A DNA stretch of 64,000 nucleotides, from NCBI GenBank assembly GCA_028866435.1, contig JAGWIC010000003.1, positions 1 through 64,000 of the forward strand, written 5' to 3'. This stretch comes from Lysobacteraceae bacterium. Lineage in GTDB: Bacteria; Pseudomonadota; Gammaproteobacteria; Xanthomonadales; Rhodanobacteraceae. The notes beneath the pieces are model-generated. The model searched no databases. It was given only the letters and a program-made list of their open reading frames with translations, and was not told where the DNA came from. Made by a program: the position numbers and the translations under genes. How positions within the stretch are numbered: the stretch's first letter is position 1; each line of letters starts with the position of its first letter. Shown here one piece after another: positions 10,417 to 53,007 of this stretch.

Positions 10417-10419
10417 AGA

Positions 10420-10516
10420 CAGGAGTGAGTGGAGAGGAGTGAGAAGAGAGAGAAGGCATCAATCTGCCGCTCTTTGCTTTTCTCTCACTCCTCACTCCTC
10501 TTCACTCATTTCTCGA
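10420..10516. repeat. Intergenic inverted repeat with ~7-bp tandem arms (GGAGTGA-type), ybaB-recR
   Basis: Left arm AGGAGTGAGTGGAGAGGAGTGAGAAGAGAGAGAAGG; right arm CTTTTCTCTCACTCCTCACTCCTCTTCACTCATTTCTCG is its imperfect reverse complement; ~20-nt spacer. Confidence 0.8.
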
Positions 10517-10523
10517 ATCGTCC

Positions 10524-34223: not shown

Positions 34224-35477
34224 ATGCAGGAAATCCGCAACTACACGATGAACTTCGGCCCGCAGCATCCGGCCGCGCATGGCGTGCTGCGCCTGTTGCT
34301 GGAGATGGATGGCGAAACCGTCGTACGCACCGATCCGCATGTGGGCCTGCTGCATCGTGGCACCGAGAAGCTGTGCGAATCCAAGCCGTTCAACCAGTCC
34401 ATCGGCTACATGGATCGCCTCGACTACGTCTCGATGATGTGCAACGAGCATGCCTACGTGAAGGCGATCGAGAACCTGCTGGGGATCGAGGCACCGGAAC
34501 GCGCACAGTACATCCGCACCATGTTCGACGAGATCACGCGGATCCTGAACCACCTGATGTGGATCGGTTCGAGCGCGCTCGACCTCGGCGCCATGGCGGT
34601 TTTCCTCTACGCGTTCCGCGAGCGCGAAGAGTTGATGGATCTGTACGAGGCGGTCTCGGGCGCGCGCATGCACGCCACCTATTACCGCCCCGGTGGCGTC
34701 TACCGCGACCTGCCGGCGCAGATGCCGCAGTACCGCCAGTCGCCCTGGCACAAGGGCAAGGACCTGCAGCGCCTGAACAGCTGGCGCGAAGGCTCGATGC
34801 TGGACTTCATCGATGCGTTCACCGCCGACTTCCCCTCGAAAGTGGATGAATACGAGACGCTGCTGACCAACAACCGGATATGGAAGCAGCGCACCGTCGG
34901 CATCGGCGTGGTTTCGCCGGAACTGGCCAAGGCCTGGGGCATGACCGGGCCGATGCTGCGCGGTTCGGGCGTCGAGTGGGACCTGCGCAAGAAGCAGCCC
35001 TATGCGAAGTACGCCGACGTCGATTTCGACATCCCGGTCGGGGTCAACGGCGACTGCTACGACCGCTATCTGGTTCGGGTCGAGGAGATGCGCCAGTCGA
35101 ACCGGATCATCAGCCAGTGCGCGCGGTGGCTGCGGGCGAATCCCGGTCCGGTGATGGTGCGCAACTTCAAGGTGGCGCCACCGTCGCGGGTCGAGATGAA
35201 GGAGGACATGGAAGCGATGATCCATCACTTCAAGTTGTTCACCGAAGGTTATTGCGTGCCGGCCGGCGAAACCTATGCCGCGGTCGAGGCGCCGAAGGGC
35301 GAGTTCGGCTGCTACCTGGTTTCCGACGGCGCCAACAAGCCGTTCCGCGTGCATCTGCGTGCGCCGGGCTTTGCCCACCTGTCATCCATGGACTCCATCG
35401 TGCGCGGCCACATGCTCGCCGACGTGGTGGCCATGATCGGTTCCTATGACCTCGTGTTCGGCGAAGTGGACCGATGA
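34224..35477 (+). CDS. nuoD: NADH-quinone oxidoreductase subunit D
   Basis: [42 protein letters not shown]. Confidence 0.99.
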
Positions 35478-35654
35478 ATACGGGATACGGGACACGGGAC
35501 ACGGGATTCGGTCGAGGGGGCTGCATCGACCGATGGCCGTCCGCTTCGATTGCCGCCATTCAGATCAGTTGCAACTTTCACGTTGGGTCTCGGTTTGCCG
35601 GGAAGCGGGTTGGCTCGTGCCGAACCCCGAATCCCGAATCCCGGATCCCGGAGT
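35478..35654. repeat. Intergenic inverted repeat with exact 7-bp tandem arms (ATACGGG/ACACGGG and CCGAATC/CCGGATC), nuoD-nuoE
   Basis: ATACGGG ATACGGG ACACGGG ACACGGG ATTCGGT (35478-35512) and CCGAACC CCGAATC CCGAATC CCGGATC CCGGAGT (35620-35654); arms are imperfect reverse complements. Confidence 0.88.
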
Positions 35655-35661
35655 TCAAGGC

Positions 35662-36189
35662 ATGAAAGCCACCGGACATTTCGAGCAGGTCAGGCACGTC
35701 GATCCGCTCGTCGTACTCACCGAGCACACCCGCCATCACGTTGACGAATGGGTGGCCAAGTTTCCGCCGGACCGCAAGCGCTCGGCGTTGATCCAGGGCC
35801 TGTTTGCCGCGCAGGAGCAGAACCGGGGCTTCCTCACCGACGACCTCATCGTCGCCGTGGCGAAGTACCTGGAGCTGCCTCCGGTCTGGGCCTACGAGGT
35901 GGCCAGCTTCTACTCGATGCTGGAGACGAAGCCGGTGGGCCGCAACAACGTGGCGATCTGCACCAACATCTCGTGCTGGCTCAACGGCGCCGAGGATCTG
36001 GTGAGGCATTGCGAGGAGAAACTTGGCATCAAGCTTGGCGAGAGCACGGCGGACGGCCGCGTGTACCTCAAGCGGGAAGAGGAGTGCATCGCCGCCTGCG
36101 TCTATGCGCCGGCGATGACGGTCAACGGGCATTACCACGAGCGTCTCACTGCCGAGAAGCTCGACGCCATTCTGGACGGGTTGGAGTAA
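35662..36189 (+). CDS. nuoE: NADH-quinone oxidoreductase subunit E
   Basis: SALIQGLFAAQEQNRGFLTDDLI; VGRNNVAICTNISCWLNGAEDL; EECIAACVYAPAMTVNGHYHE. Confidence 0.97.
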   Translation: MKATGHFEQVRHVDPLVVLTEHTRHHVDEWVAKFPPDRKRSALIQGLFAAQEQNRGFLTDDLIVAVAKYLELPPVWAYEVASFYSMLETKPVGRNNVAICTNISCWLNGAEDLVRHCEEKLGIKLGESTADGRVYLKREEECIAACVYAPAMTVNGHYHERLTAEKLDAILDGLE

Positions 36190-52892: not shown

Positions 52893-52893
52893 G

Positions 52894-53007
52894 GCCGGGA
52901 TTCGGCATGGCGGGATTCGAGATTCGCAGGAACTCGTCCGCCGTGCCGAACAGCCGCCTGTGTCCTTGACGAACCCCCATCCCGAATTTCGAATCCCAGC
53001 CCATGCC
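52894..53007. repeat. Intergenic inverted repeat (GGGATTCG-type arms) between infB and rbfA; stem includes the rbfA start codon
   Basis: GGCATGG-C-GGGATTCGA-G-ATTCG (52904-52926) pairs with CGAAT-T-TCGAATCCC-AGC-CCATGCC (52983-53007). Confidence 0.85.

Follow-up and report, generated by a model that had tools for sequence, protein, structure and literature searches.

What fills the unusually long gap between nuoD and nuoE in this genome, and does the filling serve the nuo operon? In the window, the whole stretch of 64,000 nucleotides analysed here from a Lysobacteraceae bacterium, nuoD (complex I 49-kDa subunit, 34227–35477) and nuoE (2Fe-2S thioredoxin-like subunit, 35662–36189, ATG at 35662) both lie on the plus strand, were both assigned by Pfam and are separated by 184 bp. 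The other nuo junctions in the window measure about −4 to 14 bp, as taken after correction of two mechanical start choices, which bears out the view of an earlier note on this DNA that the gap is exceptional among them.

The gap contains two facing arrays of seven-base units, read here on the plus strand. The last nuoD codon, CGA, and the TGA stop (35472–35477, stop at 35475–35477) are directly followed by five G-rich heptads at 35478–35512 (ATACGGG twice, ACACGGG twice, ATTCGGT). A spacer of 107 nt (35513–35619) separates these from five C-rich heptads at 35620–35654 (CCGAACC, CCGAATC twice, CCGGATC, CCGGAGT), the last of which ends 7 nt before the nuoE ATG. An independent search also recovered the arms, as 24 nt of 83% complementarity. 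A G-quadruplex-type motif of four GGG tracts with 4-nt loops lies on the coding strand at 35482–35505, and another such motif is found on the template strand at 35625–35649. GGAG at 35650–35653 is a plausible, putative nuoE Shine-Dalgarno, and CCCGGAG is common to 8 of the 12 filled nuoD-nuoE loci in the comparison. The heptad arms, spacer, gap length and GGAG near nuoE had all been described in the earlier note and were confirmed on the letters. The nuoE frame is open across the whole gap (35446–36189 in the window), and arrays of GGGATTC or of GGGAATC contain no stop codon in any frame.

An internal promoter and an intrinsic terminator (a stem plus a T run) were looked for in the gap and none was found, so both were rejected as the identity of the element. 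A structured RNA of the Rfam collection was likewise rejected, as no catalogued family matched the gap. The GTAG tetranucleotide and the REP palindrome are absent from the letters of the element, and no target-site duplication lies beside its arms. As RNA, the gap has a predicted folding energy of −84.6 kcal/mol, with z −2.6 against shuffles.

A unique nuo hairpin was rejected, and so was chance: the 3.08-Mb genome has 95 matches to GGGATTCGGGATTCG with one mismatch or none (reversed motif, 0). Within a sample of 0.73 Mb (24% of the genome, window included, genes called by a codon model), period-7 arrays were found in 25 of 454 intergenic gaps and in none of the shuffles; periods 4–6 and 8–12 gave 0–1, 7 being the one short period with enrichment in the sample. 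Array densities are rough because some of the sampled stretches were picked near known repeats, which affects the comparison between periods little. The genome scan proposed in the earlier note thus yielded further period-7 inverted copies, in line with its suggestion of a dispersed family.

The arrays are dispersed, intergenic and absent from divergent (promoter) gaps: 0 of 28 lie in such gaps, against a background of 93 divergent gaps among 454 (p 0.003). Opposite-strand neighbours within 250 bp are convergent in 40 of 40 cases and never divergent (own sample plus two congeners), and most convergent pairs come to about 30 bp or less from the genes on either side. Arrays of four units are the most frequent (21 of 41), and a partly conserved frame surrounds the arrays, with GCC before the heptads and GCAAGAGC after them. 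Another repeat, GTAGGAGCCCGCTCGCGGGCGATG, has 89 copies in the genome at up to two mismatches, many of which are head-to-head GTAG-REP pairs; 14 of the 25 single arrays in the sample sit in the loop of a head-to-head GTAGGAGCCCGCTCGCGGGCGATG pair. Judged by coordinates, heptad arrays form the loop in about 15 of 37 GTAG-REP head-to-head pairs of the genome, as at L217:12061–12160 and L256:13031–13137. One Y1 transposase gene, of the REP-associated type, is present (L216:1153–1866). In G012, a genome of the same family, one strand carries 82 matches and the opposite strand 1, and a run of overlapping matches suggests a very long heptad array.

The earlier note had pointed to GGGATTC-like repeats in xanthomonads. 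GGGAATC/GGGANTN heptads with convergent inverted pairs have indeed been formally described in Xanthomonas, with 70–75 such pairs of GGGAATC heptads per genome (PMC4692102, 2015). In that paper they are read as G-quadruplex elements with a preference for four-unit arrays, and are left without a function or an evolutionary model. Those heptads and the present ones share a period of 7, a GGGA core, arrays of about four units, an intergenic position near the stop on the sense strand and near the next start on the antisense strand, and convergent inverted pairs that avoid divergent gaps. They differ in the unit, which is GGGATTC here, and in the host, which here is Rhodanobacter-like. The GCAAGAGC flank, the nesting in REP pairs and the arm-by-arm matching of units were not met in the parts of the paper considered here. 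The Nostoc GGGGA(C/T)T heptads of which it also tells are G-rich period-7 intergenic arrays too, but with another unit and few inverted pairs. GTAG-tagged REP elements with head-to-head dimers (PMC3733652, 2013) resemble the present family as dispersed intergenic inverted repeats, and GTAGGAGCCCGCTCGCGGGCGATG pairs often enclose a heptad array here; unlike them, the nuoD-nuoE element has neither tag nor palindrome, the tag being present at other heptad loci. Neither Rhodanobacter nor heptamers are mentioned in the text of that paper, and a literature search on the GGGATTC unit or on Rhodanobacter REPs returned nothing relevant. The kind of element is already known from the Xanthomonas work, and the GGGATTC unit in a Rhodanobacter-like genome is a variant of it. 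The earlier note had held that a clear match to a catalogued REP or MITE family would count against its proposal; the likeness comes close to this, though the described family consists of heptad arrays and is neither REP nor MITE. A MITE with a dispersed spacer was rejected, the spacer of the window being confined to nuoD-nuoE and target-site duplications being absent.

The same architecture had also been claimed for two further sites of the window, and a hairpin element is present at both. The infB-rbfA gap (52893–53002, plus strand) holds a degenerate convergent pair of the same GGGATTC type, with a predicted RNA fold of z −3.2. The hairpin in the ybaB-recR gap (10417–10523, plus strand; arms 10421–10454 and 10480–10513) shares the architecture, has a predicted fold of z −6.4 and escaped the period-7 array test. 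It belongs to another purine-rich family, of GGAGTGA type; because of this different unit its membership in the GGGATTC family is not supported, and the three window elements are only partly supported as one family.

The cross-species comparison that the earlier note had suggested shows the element to be optional at nuoD-nuoE. Among named genomes, those of Rhodanobacter, Dyella and Frateuria are the closest. Gap length is bimodal, with 17–23 bp in 68 of 80 loci and 112–184 bp in the other 12 (window included), which carry the element. On a nuoD-nuoE-nuoF tree 8 changes are required to explain the filled state, each imposed by well-supported branches, and sisters can be of opposite state (the window locus and L074; L084 and L061). 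Rhodanobacter sp. B05 (L071) carries the element and Rhodanobacter sp. C01 (L037) lacks it. Many empty sites carry an identical 21-bp sequence; deletion would not restore such a shared sequence, so the alternation probably goes back to gain or to exchange of alleles and not to loss. A common spacer links L046 and L084 (z 13), with empty relatives lying between these two loci on the tree. The window spacer is locus-specific, because across 45 congeneric genomes it was found only at nuoD-nuoE of its own genome and of G062, besides one short marginal match. Likeness between the spacers of the window and L071 and those of the GGGAATC-type nuoD-nuoE alleles seemed good at first and weakened once the arm flank was strictly trimmed, so arm replacement at nuoD-nuoE itself is no more than a possibility.

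Filled and empty sites differ by replaced bases after the stop and not by a clean insertion. The last nuoD codon is CGA or CGG in 12 of 12 filled loci and CGC in 68 of 68 empty ones, a link that is weaker at ybaB. At most it may reflect a replaced boundary that extends into the stop region. Other inserts are seen in the operon in relatives: the nuoE-nuoF gap of L031, a near relative, holds a different element, an insert of 181 bp whose inverted ends match (AGCCTGCCTGTGA...TCACAGGCAGGCT), and a 127-bp heptad element lies at nuoF-nuoG in three congeners (L046, L068 and L070).

The genome under study has 60 GGGATTC doublets and no GGGAATC doublet. Of the pattern that marks the Xanthomonas family, two or more tandem GGGANTN units with GGGAATC at least once among them, GGGATTC arrays fit the GGGANTN part, and the GGGAATC unit occurs in 26 of 44 congeners. 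Among other congeners the ratio of GGGATTC to GGGAATC runs from 278:10 to 1:28 (the latter in G112), and some genomes are mixed. Because arm comparisons across species are confounded by species-wide unit preference, the arms were compared within two mixed genomes, G066 and G060, with 60 array loci retrieved through a seed placed on a single array. With T denoting a GGGATTC-type arm and A a GGGAATC-type arm, the 32 convergent pairs comprise 15 T-T, 15 A-A, one T-A, no A-T and one tied pair. In 30 of the 31 clear elements both arms are of one unit type (Fisher 6e-8), a p value that is optimistic because elements descending from one another are not independent.

This agreement is arm-wide. The match is unaffected when units are reordered inside an arm (0.704 vs 0.709) and position 7 is uncoupled, so the arms share a type without pair-by-pair tuning. 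Selection for compensatory pairs was rejected as the cause of matching arms, no register-specific coupling having been found. At ybaB-recR, loci with homologous spacers carry A-A (L166, L205, L206), T-T (L158), T-A (L153) and A-T (L209) arms, as if single arms had been replaced where they stand. L153 and L166 are 98% identical over the final 300 nt of ybaB and have different left arms, a difference that could alternatively come from two point changes plus the loss of two units. The co-conservation of arms expected in the earlier note therefore holds for unit type across the arm, the two discordant ybaB-recR elements apart, and fails for position-by-position pairing.

The junctions themselves are reused by unrelated repeats. 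Of 44 congeners, 14 have an empty or short ybaB-recR gap; in the rest it holds GGGANTN heptads, GGAGTGA-type pairs, GTAG-REP pairs or sequence of no assigned family. At infB-rbfA the gap spans 84–216 bp in 30 of 30 congeners (L171–L200) and is filled by at least six unrelated sequence families. A stem-loop is predicted there at z < −2 in 28 of the 30 and at z < −3 in 27, compared with 24 of 182 control gaps of the own genome at z < −3. Over the order (L317–L345), 8 of 29 infB-rbfA junctions are short (≤30 bp) and the others hold further families, including a GGGATTC-type pair in L325, from another family of the order, and GTAG-like repeats in L328–L330. It is conceivable, although we would not expect it, that certain operon junctions, infB-rbfA foremost, depend on a stem-loop whatever its sequence, which heptad pairs, GGAGTGA pairs, CCCTCTCC elements and REP dimers would supply interchangeably; slot and structure would then be conserved and the repeat family replaced. 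Slot reuse at infB-rbfA is the part of these observations that could be both new and functional.

Could the element be a selected intra-operon RNA stem-loop that determines mRNA decay or the nuoD/nuoE stoichiometry, a role that has been proposed for REP hairpins? Ten of the 12 filled nuoD-nuoE alleles fold at z < −3, divergent gaps are avoided (0/28 vs 93/454), and the strong infB-rbfA stem persists in 28 of 30 congeners despite the six or more unrelated families that supply it. We nevertheless consider this reading unlikely: the element is missing at 68 of 80 nuoD-nuoE loci and from ybaB-recR in 14 of 44 species, register-specific covariation was looked for and none was found, and in the GGGANTN set at ybaB-recR an element's own arms match no better than swapped arms (1131 of 2000 permutations). 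A nuo-specific role is not supported, because those 68 loci lack the element. As most relatives either lack it there or fill such gaps with unrelated hairpins, it is better regarded as an optional insert than as a special nuo switch.

The reading of the Xanthomonas heptads given in PMC4692102 would make the four GGG tracts of each arm DNA or RNA quadruplexes or i-motifs. The predicted four-tract motif in both nuoD-nuoE arms agrees with this, as does the prevalence of four-unit arrays (21/41), reported there for Xanthomonas too. We find it highly improbable, since the motif is absent on both strands from the other two window elements and from 41 of 58 elements at ybaB-recR and infB-rbfA, and GGAGTGA-type fillers of the same slots have few or no GGG tracts; with the motif missing in so many, a quadruplex was rejected as the common denominator of all slot fillers. 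Equally little credence is given to a transposable element of MITE or REP type that a transposase inserted whole. Alternation of presence and absence between sisters, the conserved module ends (GCC and GCAAGAGC), the nesting of 14 of 25 single arrays in GTAG-REP pairs and the Y1 transposase gene would suit such an element. Against it stand the spacer that is not dispersed, the lack of a visible target-site duplication and of a GTAG tag at nuoD-nuoE, and the replacement, rather than clean insertion, by which filled and empty sites differ.

The element is probably best read as a GGGATTC variant of the xanthomonad GGGANTN heptads, whose paired arrays are homogenised by recombination or slippage together with allele exchange, and not as a dedicated nuo regulator. 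Arrays would lengthen and shorten by slippage and would be overwritten en bloc, facing arm included, through gene conversion or template switching with other arrays. Such overwriting would keep both arms of one type and leave the hairpin as a by-product. Homologous recombination between congeners probably swapped filled and empty alleles. Matching arms would equally be expected if whole elements of two subtypes had dispersed, and conversion itself is proposed from the sequence comparisons. In the nuo mRNA the element should fold into a long imperfect stem-loop, which could mildly alter decay or how nuoE translation is coupled to nuoD, and some junctions may exploit this by-product; at the majority of filled junctions the predicted fold beats shuffles, so that there is scope for selection on the stem.

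New here are the optional element at nuoD-nuoE (12/80), the agreement of arms in unit type without conserved positional pairing, the occupation of the same junctions by unrelated inverted-repeat families, and the frequent placement of single arrays in GTAG-REP loops. Genomes that mix two unit types provide a natural experiment separating selection for pairing from homogenisation of arrays, and the present data lean to homogenisation. The reuse of junctions by unrelated hairpin families makes the role of an intra-operon hairpin directly testable.
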